Virus record (IMG/VR): IMGVR_UViG_3300017527_000462
Span: 1 to 33,693 of that record
Strand: one strand, 5' to 3'
From: a virus
Length of the DNA stretch: 33,693 nucleotides
The notes below the pieces were generated by a model. It did no database searches and had not been told where the DNA came from. It worked only from the letters and a program-made list of their open reading frames with translations. A program made the translations under genes and the position numbers. Position 1 is the first letter of the stretch; each line of letters starts with the position of its first letter. Shown piece by piece: positions 9,541 to 17,378 of the stretch.

Positions 9541-9738
9541 ATGAACGTAAAATCAGGATATAAAACAAGCGAGTTTTGGATCACAGTAGTTACAAGCCTT
9601 TTCGGCGCGTTGGTTTTGGCTGGCGTTTTGACGCAGGAAGAGGCGACGGAATGGATGGCGATTTTCGCGCCCGTTCTGTTGCTAATCGTGCCGCAGGTGT
9701 TCTATGTAGTATCACGCGCAAAAGTTAAAAGCGGATAG
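9541..9738 (+). CDS. Small two-helix membrane protein, holin candidate
   Basis: A 65-residue protein with two predicted membrane segments (about residues 11-30 and 39-58) separated by a short acidic loop (T-Q-E-E-A-T-E-W), and a lysine-rich C-terminus. The shape, size and place at the end of the tail module fit a class II-like holin. It starts after AAGGAG. No homologue is recognised, and no endolysin lies next to it, so the lysis role is inferred. Confidence 0.6.
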   Translation: MNVKSGYKTSEFWITVVTSLFGALVLAGVLTQEEATEWMAIFAPVLLLIVPQVFYVVSRAKVKSG

Positions 9739-9741
9739 GCA

Positions 9742-10137
9742 ATGGAACAACCAACAACAACCATCGGCGTTATATTGGCTATGGCTACGCTCGTTATCAC
9801 AAACGGCGTGCAATTCATGGCGAATCGCTCAAGCGCTGCGAACGATGCCGAAGCCCACGAGGATGATAACGAACTAGCCGCCGCCCGTGATACGTGGAAG
9901 CGCGTGCTGGACTTGCAAGAGCGACAAGGCGTCGAGATAGCCGACCTCCGCAAACAAGCAAGGGAGCGGGAAGCGACAAACGAAAAGCGCATCAAAGACA
10001 TGAGCCAAGCGCACGCCACCGAAACCGCCGCACTATTGGAGCGTATCGGCACGCTAGAAAAAACGGTTGAAAGGATGGGTGAATTGTTGGTTGAAAAGGA
10101 TAAAGAGATTGAACGGCTCAACAGGAGAATAATATGA
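9742..10137 (+). CDS. Membrane-anchored coiled-coil protein, lysis/spanin-like candidate
   Basis: A 131-residue protein: a short N-terminus, one membrane helix (about 7-25, I-G-V-I-L-A-M-A-T-L-V-I), then a long charged coiled coil to the end (residues 40-128). One helix followed by a coiled coil is the shape of inner-membrane spanins and of some holin-associated proteins. It starts 3 bases after the holin-like stop and overlaps the next gene by ATGA. No lipoprotein partner lies here. A structural coiled coil is the alternative. Confidence 0.5.
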   Translation: MEQPTTTIGVILAMATLVITNGVQFMANRSSAANDAEAHEDDNELAAARDTWKRVLDLQERQGVEIADLRKQAREREATNEKRIKDMSQAHATETAALLERIGTLEKTVERMGELLVEKDKEIERLNRRII

Positions 10138-10442
10138 TAGGCATCGTGGGCGGTTTTGTAGCTGGTTTGTTTCATCGGTTCTTTTTGTCACCATTCATCG
10201 GTCAGCAGACAAGAGCGGCGCAAAGTATAGGCACGCCAGCGGCGGGCGTTATTGTCGCCTTCGTGCCGTTTCGATTGTCGTTTTGGTGGATGTTACAACG
10301 CATCATTCCAGACAAGCGCCAGCGGGAAGAAGTGGCACTTGCTGCTGATTATGCCTATTGGTCTGTTTTCCTGTTTTATGGGCTTGCCGTTGTTGTTACC
10401 ATCCTCGCCAAGGTTGGCGGGGTTAGAGAGGATAAGCTATAA
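10134..10442 (+). CDS. Membrane protein, three predicted helices
   Basis: A 102-residue protein with hydrophobic stretches at about residues 2-20, 34-53 and 72-93. The middle has many aromatic residues (R-L-S-F-W-W-M) and a basic loop (P-D-K-R-Q-R-E-E). AGGAG precedes its ATG, which overlaps the upstream stop. As the last gene before the major terminator it may be part of the lysis set. I do not recognise the family. Confidence 0.55.
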   Translation: MIGIVGGFVAGLFHRFFLSPFIGQQTRAAQSIGTPAAGVIVAFVPFRLSFWWMLQRIIPDKRQREEVALAADYAYWSVFLFYGLAVVVTILAKVGGVREDKL

Positions 10443-10657: not shown

Positions 10658-10759
10658 TCAGTCTGTAACAGTGGCGGGATTGTCGGCGGGTTGCCATCGG
10701 TGCGCGTGGTAGATTTGCTCAAAATCCACGCGTCCCGATGTTCTTATTCCATCAGGCAT
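10658..10759 (-). CDS. Micro-ORF overlapping the methyltransferase end
   Basis: A 33-codon frame starting M-P-D-G-I-R-T-S and ending A-T-V-T-D. Its ATG lies 8 bases inside the methyltransferase gene, with GGGGG just upstream. Codon use (mostly G/C third positions) resembles real genes here, and the stop lies well before the palindrome repeat. An internal inverted repeat (CGCGTGG / CCACGCG, about 10700-10730) lies within it. No family is recognised. Confidence 0.4.
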   Translation of the reverse strand: MPDGIRTSGRVDFEQIYHAHRWQPADNPATVTD

Positions 10760-11669
10760 CACCCCCAAAGAGCGACTTTTGACCCTCATTTTGTGCGCTC
10801 AACAACGAAGGCGAAAAACCGATCTCGCGTATCTCTTGGCGCATCTTTTTGTTACGCATAATCCATGCGTTCGCTTGCGGGTAGAATTTGCGATCATTCT
10901 CAAACCCATACCCCAAACGACCAAGATTATTAGCAGCGACAAGAGCCGATCCGCTTCCCGCCGTCGGGTCAACGACCACATCGCCGGGGTCGGTGAATAT
11001 CTCAATCAATCGCTCCAAAACGCGGATCGGTTTTTGCGTGGGGTGGATTTTCTCATAGAACGGGTCGCCCGCTTTGTCTTTCTCCCAATCCATGATATTA
11101 AAAACCATGCGCCCATCGTTGTTGAATTTGGGTAACTTTTTGCGATAGAACAATATAGCATATTCAGCATTGCCAACTACGCGCATATTTGCCTTCAACA
11201 CTTGCGGGCTAAAATTCTTTCGAAAGACTAAGTTGATATAGTTTGGGAAGCCGTGCCGCTTGCCCAATTCAATCAGCCCAAATTGTTGTTCAAAAGAGCA
11301 AAAGATAATCATACATGGGGCCTTGCCCTTTTCCTTTGGCTCTTTGACTAACATACGACTGGCGAAGTGCATAAACTCGGCAGAGTTGAATAATTCATCC
11401 TTGCGGAAGAAATTAGACCCCGCCTTGTCGCTTTCGCCGTTTTTGCGGTCGCCGCCTTCGTACCATGACGGATTGGAGCCATAGGCATTAACGCCGATGT
11501 TATAGGGTATGTCGGCTATAATTAGCTGGGCGGGGGGGATATGGTAGCTCTTTGAGTTTTGGAAGTTGTCATGGTATAGATTGCTCTCAATCTCGCCCTT
11601 ATTGACTTTTCTAGCCAGTGCTGCCGCCTTTAATTCTGCTATTTGCTCTTCTGTTAATCGCTTGCCCAT
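10752..11669 (-). CDS. N6-adenine DNA methyltransferase, beta class
   Basis: A 305-residue protein with methyltransferase motifs in beta-class order. The catalytic motif is I-A-D-I-P-Y-N (residues 51-57, a DPPY variant with Ile for the first Pro). Then come H-P-T-Q-K-P (209-214) and the SAM-binding motif D-P-T-A-G-S-G (234-240). It would methylate adenine (less likely N4-cytosine) in DNA. No restriction endonuclease lies beside it, so it is probably an orphan enzyme that protects phage DNA or marks regulatory sites. GAGGTGA precedes the ATG. Confidence 0.88.
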   Translation of the reverse strand: MGKRLTEEQIAELKAAALARKVNKGEIESNLYHDNFQNSKSYHIPPAQLIIADIPYNIGVNAYGSNPSWYEGGDRKNGESDKAGSNFFRKDELFNSAEFMHFASRMLVKEPKEKGKAPCMIIFCSFEQQFGLIELGKRHGFPNYINLVFRKNFSPQVLKANMRVVGNAEYAILFYRKKLPKFNNDGRMVFNIMDWEKDKAGDPFYEKIHPTQKPIRVLERLIEIFTDPGDVVVDPTAGSGSALVAANNLGRLGYGFENDRKFYPQANAWIMRNKKMRQEIREIGFSPSLLSAQNEGQKSLFGGDA

Positions 11670-11761
11670 CTTATCACCTCATAAACAAAATGCGCCCCTT
11701 TGGTTAGTGATGGAAACCAAAGGGGCGCATATGCCTTAAACTTTAATTGTATCGTCTCCAT
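11654..11761 (-). CDS. Possible 35-residue leader ORF before the methyltransferase
   Basis: An open frame M-E-T-I-Q-L-K-F-K ending I-R-W-A-S-D overlaps the methyltransferase start by 16 bases. A promoter candidate lies just upstream, but there is no clear Shine-Dalgarno. The frame runs right through the long hairpin at 11690-11730, so ribosomes translating it would open the hairpin. It may be a leader peptide or a chance frame. Confidence 0.35.
   Translation of the reverse strand: METIQLKFKAYAPLWFPSLTKGAHFVYEVIRWASD
11690..11730 (-). terminator. Long perfect hairpin / attenuator before the methyltransferase
   Basis: A 16-bp perfect stem (ATGCGCCCCTTTGGTT and its complement) with a 9-base loop. 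On the minus strand it is followed by TTTTGTTT, as in an intrinsic terminator, and then by the methyltransferase site and start. It separates the membrane/helix-turn-helix gene from the methyltransferase and probably limits read-through. Confidence 0.7.
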
Positions 11762-11776
11762 CACAAGACAATTGCT

Positions 11777-11805
11777 ATAGTATTGTATTTTACAATTTAC
11801 GTCAA
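11777..11805 (-). promoter_or_regulatory. Promoter candidate for the methyltransferase
   Basis: On the minus strand TTGACG (11805-11800), a 17-base spacer and TACTAT (11782-11777) lie in the gap after the membrane/helix-turn-helix gene. The -35 is near consensus and the -10 moderate. It would let the methyltransferase be expressed apart from the rest of the leftward operon. Confidence 0.5.
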
Positions 11806-11813
11806 GAAGTTGG

Positions 11814-12650
11814 TTATACCACTCTTGGATCGTTGCCATTGACAACATAAACGCCGTGTGCTTTTTGCTCAATATGTCCCTCGCCCAAACTATAGCGAAT
11901 AACATTGGAAACGGTGCGACCGCTTACACCTGTTAATGTTCGCCGTGCGCTTGCTGGCGTTAAATCCCGCCCATCCTCATGTGCGCTATAGAGCAAACAT
12001 GCACGCTCCCACATTGCGCTATGGGTTGCGCTTTGCGCTATGGGTTGCGCTTTCGTTGCGCTTTGCGCTATGGGTTGCGCTATTGGTTGCGCTATCTTCG
12101 CCATCTTGACCGCTAATCTATCCGCCGCCTGTTGCCGTTTCAATTCCCGCTCAAATTCGATTTTGTCATCTTCCAGCGTGTCAACCCGCGCCGCCGCTTT
12201 GCGCTCTATGCTTGATTCCTTGCGCTCTATGCTATCCATCCCAATCAGTGCATAATTTACAGCGACCAATAGGAAAACGGCCGTTGTGATGATTTTGTGG
12301 GCGGTGTTCACATCGGTGAACCATAACGCCCCGCCGCCTACAATCAAATAGATGGCGACGAATGACAACGGCAGTATTAACGGCCGTTTCTCTTCATACG
12401 ATTTGATTGCTCGGTGCGATGCCATAAAACCCACCGCCTCAACACCGCCAGCCGTGAAAACTGCCATCGTTACAGACAGCATAGCGGCGGCGGTTTCGTC
12501 CATCCAAAACGCATATACACCAATCCCAAATAGCCCGCCGCTTACCAATGGCAACAGGCGCGAAAATAGATTTGTGATTGTGTATTGAATGGTCAAGCCG
12601 ATGGCGGTTGACCATCGGCGGGCGAATTTTACAAGTTGTTCGTCTCTCAT
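11814..12650 (-). CDS. Four-helix membrane protein with coiled coil and C-terminal winged-helix-like domain
   Basis: A 278-residue protein. Predicted membrane helices lie at about residues 31-50, 54-76, 90-110 and 118-137. A charged coiled-coil segment follows (140-186, E-R-K-E-S-S-I-E-R-K). A tandem repeat of A-Q-P-I / A-Q-S-A-T (186-210) comes next, and a C-terminal domain (213-270) looks like a winged helix: T-P-A-S-A-R-R-T-L-T, G-V-S-G-R-T-V-S-N-V-I, wing H-G-V-Y-V-V. The shape recalls DUF2637/SpdB-type proteins of actinobacterial mobile elements, by analogy only. It may hold DNA at the membrane or sense an envelope signal. It overlaps the next upstream gene by ATGA. Confidence 0.65.
   Translation of the reverse strand: MRDEQLVKFARRWSTAIGLTIQYTITNLFSRLLPLVSGGLFGIGVYAFWMDETAAAMLSVTMAVFTAGGVEAVGFMASHRAIKSYEEKRPLILPLSFVAIYLIVGGGALWFTDVNTAHKIITTAVFLLVAVNYALIGMDSIERKESSIERKAAARVDTLEDDKIEFERELKRQQAADRLAVKMAKIAQPIAQPIAQSATKAQPIAQSATHSAMWERACLLYSAHEDGRDLTPASARRTLTGVSGRTVSNVIRYSLGEGHIEQKAHGVYVVNGNDPRVV
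12026..12081. repeat. In-gene tandem repeat, 30-bp period
   Basis: A 26-base sequence beginning TTGCGCTTTGCGCTATGGG occurs at 12026-12051 and again at 12056-12081, with partial copies on both sides (about 12015-12094). It encodes the A-Q-P-I-A-Q-S-A-T linker between the coiled coil and the winged-helix-like domain. Such repeats can expand or contract by slippage and so change linker length. Confidence 0.8.
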
Positions 12651-12850
12651 GATTTCAACATCTCCTTATAAAACAGGCGCAAAATTTCCTTAAACTGTGC
12701 AGGCAAATTCGCCAGCGTTATTTGCTCATCCAATTCGCGCCAATAGCGGCGGCGTGTGCTTTCCCATCCAAGCGCGGTACGGTTTCCTGTTTTCAAATAC
12801 AGAAAGTATTCGTTGTGCGCCCGTGTGAATTTGTTGCTTTCTTTTTGCAT
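12647..12850 (-). CDS. Small basic hypothetical protein
   Basis: A 67-residue helical protein rich in Arg, Glu and Leu, with R-R-R-Y-W-R-E-L in the middle. GAGGGG lies before its ATG, and its stop overlaps the start of the membrane/helix-turn-helix gene by ATGA, so the two are translated together. A possible frame ends 2 bases before this start. The function is unknown; a partner of the membrane protein is plausible. Confidence 0.6.
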   Translation of the reverse strand: MQKESNKFTRAHNEYFLYLKTGNRTALGWESTRRRYWRELDEQITLANLPAQFKEILRLFYKEMLKS

Positions 12851-12852
12851 TG

Positions 12853-12936
12853 TTACCCCTCTTCATCAGCCCACCCCGATGCCATAAATGGCGGTCGGTC
12901 GGCGCCGTCGTCCGTCGTGCACTCGTGGTAGACTGT
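12853..12936 (-). other. Open -1 frame after the lipoprotein gene (extension or micro-ORF without a clear start)
   Basis: On the minus strand, the frame one base back from the lipoprotein gene reads G-V-T-V-Y-H-E-C-T-T-D-D-G-A-D-R-P-P and ends M-A-S-G-W-A-D-E-E-G. Codon use is gene-like, and the stop lies 2 bases before the next gene's ATG. It has no ordinary start codon. It could be reached by a -1 slip on the G run just before the lipoprotein stop, or an assembly indel may have split one gene. Confidence 0.35.
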
Positions 12937-13892
12937 TACTCCCCCGCCTCGCTTTGCTGGGGGAGTCCATCCATATCTAATAATTCACGCACGCCGTAAT
13001 GAGTCCATTTGTTGCCGTTTCCTGATGTCCTGACCCATCCCCGCTCTTTCATCACTGCCAGAATGGAGTTGTACAAATCACCGTTTGATAATCCTATCAA
13101 TTCATCCATCCCCCGCCCACTCGTTGACGTTGAACGGCGGAAACCAAAATCGCCCGCTATGATGTTGTTTTCCATCGCGTCAAGGTTTGCACCTGTAAAA
13201 GTATAAGTGATGGCACGCCCGTTTTTACGTGTCAATGCGATTGATTCACGCTCCGCATTGATGGCGACTGTTTCGCCGTTGGTGGGGGTGAATGGGATAA
13301 TACGCGGGGCGGGCAGTTGTAGCGGTTCCGGTTCTTCATCCATCAACCAATCGCCATTGATGACAATCGGCTCGCCGTTGGCGGTTAGTATCGTGCGGTT
13401 TTTGAATAATAGAATCTTGAATAGAACAACAGAACCAACAAAGAAAAACGCAAAGAAAGCGACCCACAACGCCGTCTTAACTATATCGCGCCGTGTGGCG
13501 TTGTACTCCGCCTCATCCGCCGCCAATTGCAACGCTCCCCGCGTTGCTATCGTTTTCAATGTCTCCCGCGTGGCGATGGCATCCAATTTGATTTGGTTTT
13601 CGGCGTTGGCGATGCTGGCGGCGCGTTCTGCGTTTCGTGCCTGTTCCGTCTGCATTGGTACAGCCGTCATAGTGGCCACGATGCCCGCTTGCCGCGTGGC
13701 GCTGTCTGCCATACTTCCCGCTGTCGCCCGTGCTGCCGCCGTCATAATCGGCGCGGCTTGTGCCGTTGTTGCTATCGTGGTCTGCGTTGCCGCCGCCTGC
13801 AATCCATCCATGACAGCGCCGCCCGTCGCCGATGGCGGGGCTGGCGTTGCACATGAGGCAAGCAAAAGAAGGATGAGGACGGCGGGTTTCAT
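12936..13892 (-). CDS. Lipoprotein-signal, single-pass membrane protein with cytosolic winged-helix-like domain
   Basis: A 318-residue protein. The N-terminus is a lipoprotein signal with lipobox L-A-S-C (Cys14). Residues 20-135 are Ala/Thr-rich and then coiled-coil-like. A strong membrane helix lies at about 138-163 (V-A-F-F-A-F-F-F-V-G-S-V-V-L-F). Residues 170-318 are probably cytosolic and end in a winged-helix-like part (about 258-310: D-E-L-I-G-L-S-N-G-D-L-Y-N-S-I-L-A-V-M-K-E-R-G-W). The layout is an envelope sensor or tether linked to DNA or protein binding. It starts 2 bases after the upstream stop. A run of five G before its stop may allow a -1 shift into an extension. Confidence 0.65.
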   Translation of the reverse strand: MKPAVLILLLLASCATPAPPSATGGAVMDGLQAAATQTTIATTAQAAPIMTAAARATAGSMADSATRQAGIVATMTAVPMQTEQARNAERAASIANAENQIKLDAIATRETLKTIATRGALQLAADEAEYNATRRDIVKTALWVAFFAFFFVGSVVLFKILLFKNRTILTANGEPIVINGDWLMDEEPEPLQLPAPRIIPFTPTNGETVAINAERESIALTRKNGRAITYTFTGANLDAMENNIIAGDFGFRRSTSTSGRGMDELIGLSNGDLYNSILAVMKERGWVRTSGNGNKWTHYGVRELLDMDGLPQQSEAGE

Positions 13893-13894
13893 GT

Positions 13895-14212
13895 TTAGTA
13901 ATTCGCCGGGTTAAAATCGGCGGCAGTATCATCACCAACTACGCCAGATGCGGCGGCGAAATAGTCAGGTGCAACCGCTGTAACGCCCGAATTGTTACCA
14001 ATGGCAATTACTCGTTTCTTGGCTGGCTGTGAGCATTCATGCGCGTATGCGTGCCGGATGCGGCGGGCGGCGCGGTTTGTATGCGTTATGGGTCGGTCTG
14101 GCGTGAATGGGTATTGTGTGGGCTGATACGCTCCCCGATGCCCATAATCGCGCACCCAAACTACCAAATCACCATTGTTCGCTTTCGTTGTCATTCGTTG
14201 TGGATAATTCAT
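13895..14212 (-). CDS. Hypothetical protein of the leftward operon
   Basis: A 105-residue protein with many Asn, Tyr, Pro and Ala residues and the phrase L-V-V-W-V-R-D-Y-G-H-R-G-A-Y near residue 16. The ATG at 14212 follows a GATGGAGAAGGAACA leader like those at other small genes in this genome; an internal ATG (residue 7) is the alternative. No family is recognised. Confidence 0.55.
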   Translation of the reverse strand: MNYPQRMTTKANNGDLVVWVRDYGHRGAYQPTQYPFTPDRPITHTNRAARRIRHAYAHECSQPAKKRVIAIGNNSGVTAVAPDYFAAASGVVGDDTAADFNPANY

Positions 14213-14279
14213 TGTTCCTTCTCCATCATGTGCGACTTGCGCCGCGTGTTTTGTTATAAAATCACTCCGATGTATTTAC

Positions 14280-14546
14280 TCATTCGCTCCCTGCCGCATG
14301 ATCCGCTTGGCTATCTGGATTCCAAACGATGCTGACGGGGGCGATATAAAAACGGCCGCTTAGTGCCAACGTCTCAGCAACGCCACGACAAATCTCCTGC
14401 ATCACCGTTGATACAGGTGGAAAACGGGCGGCATCGGCAGGCTCGCAGATGATACGTAACGTCAAGTCGATGGTTTTAAGGGCATCTGTCTGGTTGCTAT
14501 GGGTAACCTTTTCCTGTTCAACATCTGTTTTCGTTAATTTATTCAT
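14280..14546 (-). CDS. Hypothetical protein, first gene of the leftward operon
   Basis: An 88-residue protein starting M-N-K-L-T-K-T-D-V-E-Q-E-K, preceded by AAAGAGGGAACA. The middle (L-T-L-R-I-I-C-E-P-A-D-A-A-R-F) suggests a compact alpha/beta fold. It is the first gene read from the promoter at 14588-14616. A repressor would be expected near here, but I see no helix-turn-helix in it. Confidence 0.55.
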   Translation of the reverse strand: MNKLTKTDVEQEKVTHSNQTDALKTIDLTLRIICEPADAARFPPVSTVMQEICRGVAETLALSGRFYIAPVSIVWNPDSQADHAAGSE

Positions 14547-14641: not shown

Positions 14642-14670
14642 TTGTAATTGACATTATAATGCGTTATACT
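14642..14670 (+). promoter_or_regulatory. Rightward promoter with second copy of the operator
   Basis: TTGTAA (14642-14647), a 17-base spacer and TATACT (14665-14670) lie ahead of the gene at 14717. ATTATAATGCGTTATACT (14653-14670) matches the leftward operator at 16 of 18 positions and likewise overlaps the -10. The two sites are 65 bp apart. Confidence 0.65.
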
Positions 14671-14716
14671 GTAGTGAGAATATAAAATGATTTTTTATTG
14701 TACGGAGGTGCAACAG

Positions 14717-15524: not shown

Positions 15525-15590
15525 CCATTTGCGCGGGGTCAGGAAAATGGTAACAAAAAAGCCACTCAAATTTGAGTGGCTTTTCTTTTT
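15520..15590. terminator. Hairpin plus bidirectional terminator between convergent operons
   Basis: A first hairpin CCTGACC / GGTCAGG (15520-15543) overlaps the last stop codon. Then a perfect palindrome, AAAAGCCACTCAAA and its complement (15557-15584), is flanked by A's on the left and T's on the right. It can end transcripts from the 14717-15524 operon and from the Bet operon. Confidence 0.9.
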
Positions 15591-16610: not shown

Positions 16611-16651
16611 TGTTTGTTCTCCATCATGGGGCGACGTTTGCCGCCCCGCGT
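16611..16651 (-). promoter_or_regulatory. Repeated hairpin leader, copy before bet
   Basis: On the minus strand a 20-base hairpin GGGGCGGCAAACGTCGCCCC (16647-16628) follows the upstream TAA and is followed by ATGATGGAGAACAAACA and the bet start. Over 30 bases match the leader at 16895-16936. The stem leaves GGAG free just downstream. Confidence 0.8.
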
Positions 16652-16894
16652 TTATTTGTTGCGTTCGTCGTATTCATCAATCCATGCGGCAACTTCCGCA
16701 AAATCATACCGACCGTCAACTTCTAAACGGTGCGATTTGTTGTCTACGGATTCCATGATCCCAAACTCGCCAAAATCGGCGGCAACTTCGGCGCTGGCGT
16801 AAAAATCAACAAGTTGCTGCTCCTTCCACAGTTTACTAACAACCACTTGCCGCTTCATTTGCGGACGTGCTGCGAGACTCTTTCGTTCGTTCAT
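16652..16894 (-). CDS. Small hypothetical protein upstream of bet
   Basis: An 80-residue charged protein starting M-N-E-R-K-S-L-A-A-R-P, with an acidic C-terminal half (F-A-E-V-A-A-W-I-D-E-Y-D-E-R). It has the repeated leader GATGGAGAAAGGGAACA before its ATG. Lying in the bet operon, it may help recombination or control it. The family is not recognised. Confidence 0.6.
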   Translation of the reverse strand: MNERKSLAARPQMKRQVVVSKLWKEQQLVDFYASAEVAADFGEFGIMESVDNKSHRLEVDGRYDFAEVAAWIDEYDERNK

Positions 16895-16936
16895 TGTTCC
16901 CTTTCTCCATCATGGGGCGACGTTTGCCGCCCCGTT
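16895..16936 (-). promoter_or_regulatory. Repeated hairpin leader, copy before the small gene
   Basis: The same hairpin GGGGCGGCAAACGTCGCCCC (16933-16914, minus strand), then ATGATGGAGAAAGGGAACA and the ATG at 16894. An 18-codon frame starting MNKTTG (ATG near 16950) runs through the hairpin and ends at the gene start; it may be chance. Confidence 0.8.
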
Positions 16937-17314: not shown

Positions 17315-17378
17315 ATAATAGCACAGTATCAAACACCTGTCAACACGTGTTGACATATGTCATATTATACGCTATTCT
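17315..17378. promoter_or_regulatory. Divergent promoter pair sharing one palindromic operator
   Basis: TGTCAACACGTGTTGACA (17338-17355) is a perfect 18-bp palindrome whose two ends are both TTGACA. Rightward: TTGACA (17350-17355), 17 bases, TATTCT (17373-17378). Leftward: TTGACA (17343-17338), 17 bases, TATTAT (17320-17315). Both -35 boxes are consensus and both spacers are 17. One bound dimer would cover both, so this is the likely control switch between the bet operon and the main early operon. Confidence 0.88.

Follow-up and report, generated by a model that had tools for sequence, protein, structure and literature searches.

Two neighbouring membrane proteins of an environmental phage as a possible DNA tether, one of them a probable motor-less relative of a HerA/FtsK-like membrane protein

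The environmental phage considered here encodes two neighbouring membrane proteins, A and B, whose anatomy, together with the kinship of B, points to the handling of DNA at the membrane. B is probably related to a HerA/FtsK-like membrane protein of another phage, called T below, but without its motor, and our preferred reading, tentative and somewhat short of probable, is that A and B form a membrane tether of phage DNA with DNA-binding-like domains on the cytosolic side. The gene pair is real and uncommon, and its DNA-binding character is plausible. A preliminary description of this DNA had seen membrane-bound proteins with inward-facing, DNA-binding-like ends; this is still the best reading, with the membrane layout now borne out by hydropathy and the winged helices left as candidates. 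For only very few double-stranded DNA phages is it well understood how the replicating or packaged DNA comes to lie at the membrane. If the proposal is true, a motor-less translocase relative and a four-span partner would make a simple, testable tether, and would link the positioning of phage DNA to plasmid transfer proteins of the TraB/SpdB2 type.

The phage and its possible host

The record IMGVR_UViG_3300017527_000462 is a virus contig of 33,693 bases from an environmental collection, and its whole length is referred to here as the window. A 99-base direct repeat at both ends of the record is what is expected of a circular assembly, and the window codes for terminase, portal, head and tail proteins, a primase-helicase, a RecT annealing protein and two DNA methyltransferases. 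The closest terminases in genome contigs are found in metagenome-assembled contigs labelled Pirellulaceae, Chloroflexi, Bacillota and Armatimonadetes. Ala/Thr-rich coils of the type seen in B are common among Chloroflexota proteins, and a Chloroflexota host is our guess.

Architecture of the two proteins

Both proteins are encoded on the minus strand by genuine genes with phage-like codon usage, the log-odds per codon being 0.247 for B and 0.225 for A, compared with 0.13-0.32 for reference genes and -0.22 to 0.03 for spurious ORFs. Protein B (318 aa, 12936-13892) is predicted to cross the membrane once and to end in a cytosolic tail. Its sequence begins with a signal peptide and the lipobox LLASC with Cys14 (residues 1-17, 13842-13892), followed by a long Ala/Thr-rich helix or coiled coil predicted to lie outside the membrane (residues ~67-135, 13488-13694), a single membrane span with a hydropathy peak of 2.53 (residues ~140-163, 13404-13475) and a candidate winged-helix-like C-terminal domain, to which weak alignments point (residues ~234-310, 12963-13193). 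In a single-sequence AlphaFold2 model, a helix extends over residues 67-164, with pLDDT values of 77-89 across residues 91-160. Hydropathy and the model bear out the layout described earlier for B, from the ORF coordinates and the LLASC lipobox to the long helix and the one strong span.

Protein A (278 aa, 11814-12650) has four spans, a coiled coil, an AQPI linker and a C-terminal domain. By hydropathy, the spans occupy residues ~28-50, 54-76, 88-115 and 117-142 (residues 28-142 as a whole, 12225-12569), and the charge distribution, judged by inspection, fits an N-in/C-in topology; the topology of both proteins was derived from hydropathy and charge only. A long helix (residues 114-197) is predicted with fair local confidence by single-sequence AlphaFold2, and is followed by an AQPI/AQSAT repeat linker (residues ~186-213, 12012-12095), encoded by a tandem DNA repeat at about 12014-12097 (families D1, D3 and D4), and by a candidate winged-helix-like C-terminal domain marked by a RepL match below the cut-off (residues ~211-273, 11832-12020). 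The four spans, the long helix and the AQPI-coding tandem repeat of the earlier description are all present.

The span region of A also gives a sub-threshold match to a holin superfamily (Phage_holin_3_6, E 8e-4, cut-off not reached). A lysis role for A is put low, as holin-like genes lie elsewhere (9541-10442), 3' of the tail genes and on the strand opposite to A and B. The same match, the weak profile evidence and the orphan status of both proteins would nevertheless suit the view that they are nothing more than orphan membrane proteins of the phage with an accessory or lysis-related role, the tails merely resembling winged helices. We consider this very improbable, since the holin-like genes stand on the other strand and the collinear similarity of B to a DNA translocase would be left unexplained.

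Kinship of B with a membrane-bound ATPase

A scan of viral contigs for the paired palindrome of the window brought up records that share tail genes with this phage. The comparator record IMGVR_UViG_3300040801_001003 (loci L195 and L196) carries two adjacent genes (L196:3240-5925), which we regard as a TraB/SpdB2-like pair in a phage. The product of one (L196 3240-3974) is a four-span protein of the DUF2637 family (Pfam E 1.6e-19). It contains a coiled-coil repeat and has an HTH at its C-terminus, where the same residues are matched by several HTH families (best E 0.005). The other gene encodes T (524 aa, read from MKRIELIG), in which a lipobox and an Ala/Thr-rich coil precede one span, a HerA-like ATPase and a C-terminal helical domain; the ATPase matches NCBIfam HerA at E 4.8e-7 and plasmid DNA-transfer-type ATPases at E 1e-22. 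The pair of the window and the pair of L196 have the same two layouts, with the gene order swapped.

Residues 168-293 of B align with residues 406-524 of T, the stretch behind the ATPase, at E 0.003 in a single BLASTP comparison, and T takes first rank for the cytosolic part of B among the 6384 ORFs of the fetched loci. The likeness of B to T lies above that of shuffled sequences in both the juxtamembrane (p 0.001) and the C-terminal part (p 0.0015); the two coils score z 7.5, a value biased by composition, and the tail of B alone does not place first in the ORF ranking (rank 6 or 59). B has no Walker A motif in its sequence and no ATPase match in Pfam or NCBIfam. Its juxtamembrane stretch aligns to T on either side of the ATPase, and in both cases the motor is missing from B. 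Because B matches T outside its motor, it looks like a motor-less relative; both this kinship and the absence of the motor are supported by the comparison, in which the similarity is modest and comes from a single comparator, the only one with both halves. Set against the HerA/FtsK/TraB translocases in general, B shares the N-terminal anchor, a wHTH-like C-terminus and the collinear match to the post-ATPase tail of T, whereas it lacks their ATPase core, and its membrane part is made up of lipobox, coil and one span.

An evolutionary scenario that goes further, and which as a whole we hold to be rather doubtful, is that the phage module derives from a membrane DNA pump, composed of a HerA/FtsK-like ATPase and a four-span partner, that lost its motor and kept both anchors and the DNA-reading tails; in phages of an uncultivated lineage, possibly of the Chloroflexota, the former translocase pair would thereby have become a passive tether between DNA and membrane. 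Alternatively, A and B could be subunits that recruit a host-encoded HerA/FtsK/TraB-like motor to the phage DNA, for instance for packaging, segregation or transfer. L196, with its motor within the counterpart of B and adjoining the DUF2637 protein, would agree with such an adaptor role, as would SpdB2, a TraB-interacting integral membrane protein encoded on a Streptomyces plasmid, whose DNA binding shows no sequence preference (PMC4170104). However, the window showed no recognisable motor gene close to A and B, and we judge this adaptor role very unlikely.

Relation of A to the DUF2637 family and searches for relatives

The hint at DUF2637/SpdB proteins in the preliminary description turned out to fit the comparator, where a true DUF2637-HTH protein stands beside the probable relative of B, but not A itself. 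A is like DUF2637/SpdB2 proteins in its four spans, coiled coil and C-terminal DNA-binding-like tail, a likeness of layout only, and unlike them in matching neither PF10935 nor the L196 protein: a search of the window genome with DUF2637 (PF10935) did not match A even at an E limit of 10, nor did the Pfam scan, and the L196 DUF2637 protein stands 178th in the ORF ranking for A. Four four-span proteins of related records show no profile similarity to A (hhalign E 0.21), and these same proteins do match a mycobacteriophage DUF2637 protein (E 3e-5). A has the layout of a DUF2637-HTH protein without being of its family, and no family matched it. A four-span protein with a cytosolic tail is present in 4 of the 7 motif-rich or terminase-related records read to at least 20 kb. 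In phages, DUF2637-like proteins were detected in 535 records, most of them of mycobacteriophages; two of the mycobacteriophage proteins adjoin an integrase and end soon after the spans, without a long tail.

No homologue of A or B was detected by tblastn in 50,697 phage records, and exact-peptide seeds found none for either protein in viral contigs and none for B in genome contigs. Matches in 400 genomes from the phylum to which a Chloroflexi match belongs were low-complexity or unrelated and were rejected as homologues. As these searches found no homologue of A or B, conservation gives no support for function. Among terminase relatives, a two-span family (L007:5742-6395 and L023:835-1467) was considered as sharing the tail of B, with unconvincing p values of 0.03 and 0.43. 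The proteins of this family have a Trp-rich cytosolic domain and are encoded near the terminase, with single-span neighbours in L007; no family matched them, and they are possibly another membrane-anchored protein of the A/B kind.

Superinfection exclusion is a frequent task of phage membrane proteins and lipoproteins that do not belong to the lysis cassette, and B carries a lipobox. The pair might accordingly serve in exclusion or immunity, blocking the entry of DNA from related phages, with tails that act on the incoming DNA or are incidental. Yet A and B match no phage or defence family (nor does S, the small protein encoded between them, match a defence family), no lysogeny module was recognised among the genes scanned, and known exclusion proteins need no DNA-binding-like tails, all of which makes such a role quite unlikely.

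The C-terminal tails

From the first inspection of the DNA, the tails had been described as winged-helix-like. The sequence pattern and weak matches to RepL (A) and FtsK gamma (B) favour a wHTH in each tail, while the single-sequence AlphaFold2 models of the full-length proteins, in which both tails have pLDDT values of 28-49, are too poor to support it. Residues ~235-268 of A match a region of the RepL profile that we take to be a winged helix, the fragment alone scoring E 0.059 and the search of the window genome 0.0044, neither of which reaches the curated cut-off. Aligned to FtsK gamma of E. coli K-12, the tail of B brings helix 2, the recognition helix and the wing into register (p 0.04 versus shuffles); the FtsK gamma profile PF09397 has no match anywhere in the window, and the wHTH-like tail of a plasmid ATPase shows no similarity to that of B. 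A phmmer search of PDB sequences, with the entries of the phi29 protein p16.7 included, gave no p16.7 match for either tail. The two ends had also been called similar, a claim that finds no support here, since the likeness of the A tail to the B tail is no greater than that of shuffled sequence (p = 0.13).

Organization of the gene unit

A and B belong to a closely packed series of genes on one strand, in the order 14280-14546, 13895-14212, B, S and A. The two upstream genes, neither of which matches a family, are in the same transcription-like unit as B, S and A; the start of B lies 2 bases past the end of gene 13895-14212, and A overlaps the stop of S by 4 bases. S is a small basic protein of 67 aa without family match, and its gene (12647-12850, minus strand) confirms the small protein noted earlier between A and B. 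On the same strand, a promoter-like site (TTCTCA-16-TATAAT, 14653-14680) is located 5' of the unit. Promoter-like sites around A and B number 11, against 11.6 expected from shuffled sequence, and are thus not above chance, for which reason transcription units were read from spacing and hairpins.

The adenine methyltransferase had been placed in one operon with the pair. This N6/N4 DNA methyltransferase (10752-11669, minus strand; PF01555 E 1.3e-21, PHROG 67 E 4.6e-43) is indeed on the same strand, but starts 145 bases beyond A, and a promoter-like site and a 16-bp hairpin intervene; it is probably a separate transcription unit downstream of A and B. The hairpin (11690-11730, minus strand) is perfect, is followed by TTTTGTTT and, with its T-rich tail, folds with z -4.1 in the leader 11660-11780, downstream of the promoter-like site and 20 bases 5' of the methyltransferase start codon; it is possibly the terminator of the A/B unit or a leader or attenuation hairpin of the methyltransferase. 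RecT is encoded on the strand of A and B, yet is separated from them by a strong hairpin (15557-15584) and two opposite-strand ORFs.

The A/B unit is preceded by a divergent, AT-rich intergenic region that contains inverted repeats. This region would be in keeping with A and B being membrane-bound one-component transcription regulators that sense the envelope or membrane and control phage promoters, similar to ToxR or CadC turned end for end, and the coil of B outside, the one or four spans and the wHTH-like tail inside would suit the transfer of a signal. No sensor domain was recognised in A or B, however, and the translocase kinship of B suggests DNA handling over signalling, so that we regard a regulatory role as unlikely.

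The proposed tether and known systems

From the features described above we infer winged-helix folds, DNA binding, an interaction between A and B, and the tether function itself. B would sit in the membrane with its lipidated N-terminus and one span, its Ala/Thr-rich helix outside and its winged-helix-like tail inside, and would descend from, or share ancestry with, a HerA/FtsK-like membrane DNA translocase, the ATPase core being absent. A would add four spans and a candidate winged-helix-like C-terminal domain on a flexible AQPI-repeat linker. Co-produced from one early-type unit on the strand of RecT, the two proteins may keep the phage DNA bound to the cytoplasmic membrane while it replicates or segregates, a role like that of phi29 p16.7, and SpdB2 may act likewise beside TraB on Streptomyces plasmids.

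Among known systems, p1 and p16.7 of phi29 are two early phage membrane proteins and proposed anchors of phage DNA replication (PMC4974454). The statement in the preliminary description that no such pair had been described in phages was too strong, since these two are a described membrane pair anchoring replicating DNA. The layout of A and B resembles p16.7 in its membrane anchor and coil; it differs in that p16.7 binds single-stranded DNA and the terminal protein, that A is polytopic and B a lipoprotein, and that the tails have no sequence match. AlpA and AlpC of prophage CGP3 are also phage-encoded and position phage DNA in the cell (PMC4446434). Unlike A and B, they are not a membrane-protein pair: AlpC is an actin-like filament and AlpA a DNA-binding adaptor.

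Repeated and palindromic sequences of the window

The palindrome AACGGCCGTT is present in 15 exact copies in the window, compared with 0.03 expected from base composition, and in 17 copies with one mismatch, compared with 1.8 in shuffles. The exact copies, at positions 402, 10562, 10619, 12276, 12379, 15102, 18179, 18352, 19583, 22105, 22997, 25429, 27506, 29256 and 29644, are spread over intergenic DNA and each of the three reading frames, two of them within gene A, and leave out ~0.9-10.4 kb of the window. Other environmental phage records are similarly rich (21, 19 and 17 copies per 13-15 kb in L170, L178 and L184), the number reaches 33 within 40 kb in related records, and no comparable density was seen in 400 genomes sampled from the phylum of a Chloroflexi match. 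AACGGCCGTT is possibly a highly iterated palindrome of the host lineage or a repeated protein-binding site. Its role as a binding site of A or B is weakened by equal or higher densities in records in which no HTH-bearing membrane protein was found, and therefore a signature of the host lineage, like the cyanobacterial HIP1 repeat, appears at least as likely as a binding site.

Two further elements were observed in the window. At 17338-17355, an 18-bp perfect palindrome, TGTCAACACGTGTTGACA, covers the -35 boxes of two divergent promoter-like sites, the leftward one being strong (TTGACA-17-TATTAT), and looks like an operator. An exact 32-base repeat (16617-16648 and 16903-16934), made up of the hairpin GGGGCGGCAAACGTCGCCCC followed by ATGATGGAGAA, has a shorter form at 14219-14229; its copies stand directly 5' of RecT and of gene 16652-16894, as a repeated translation leader.
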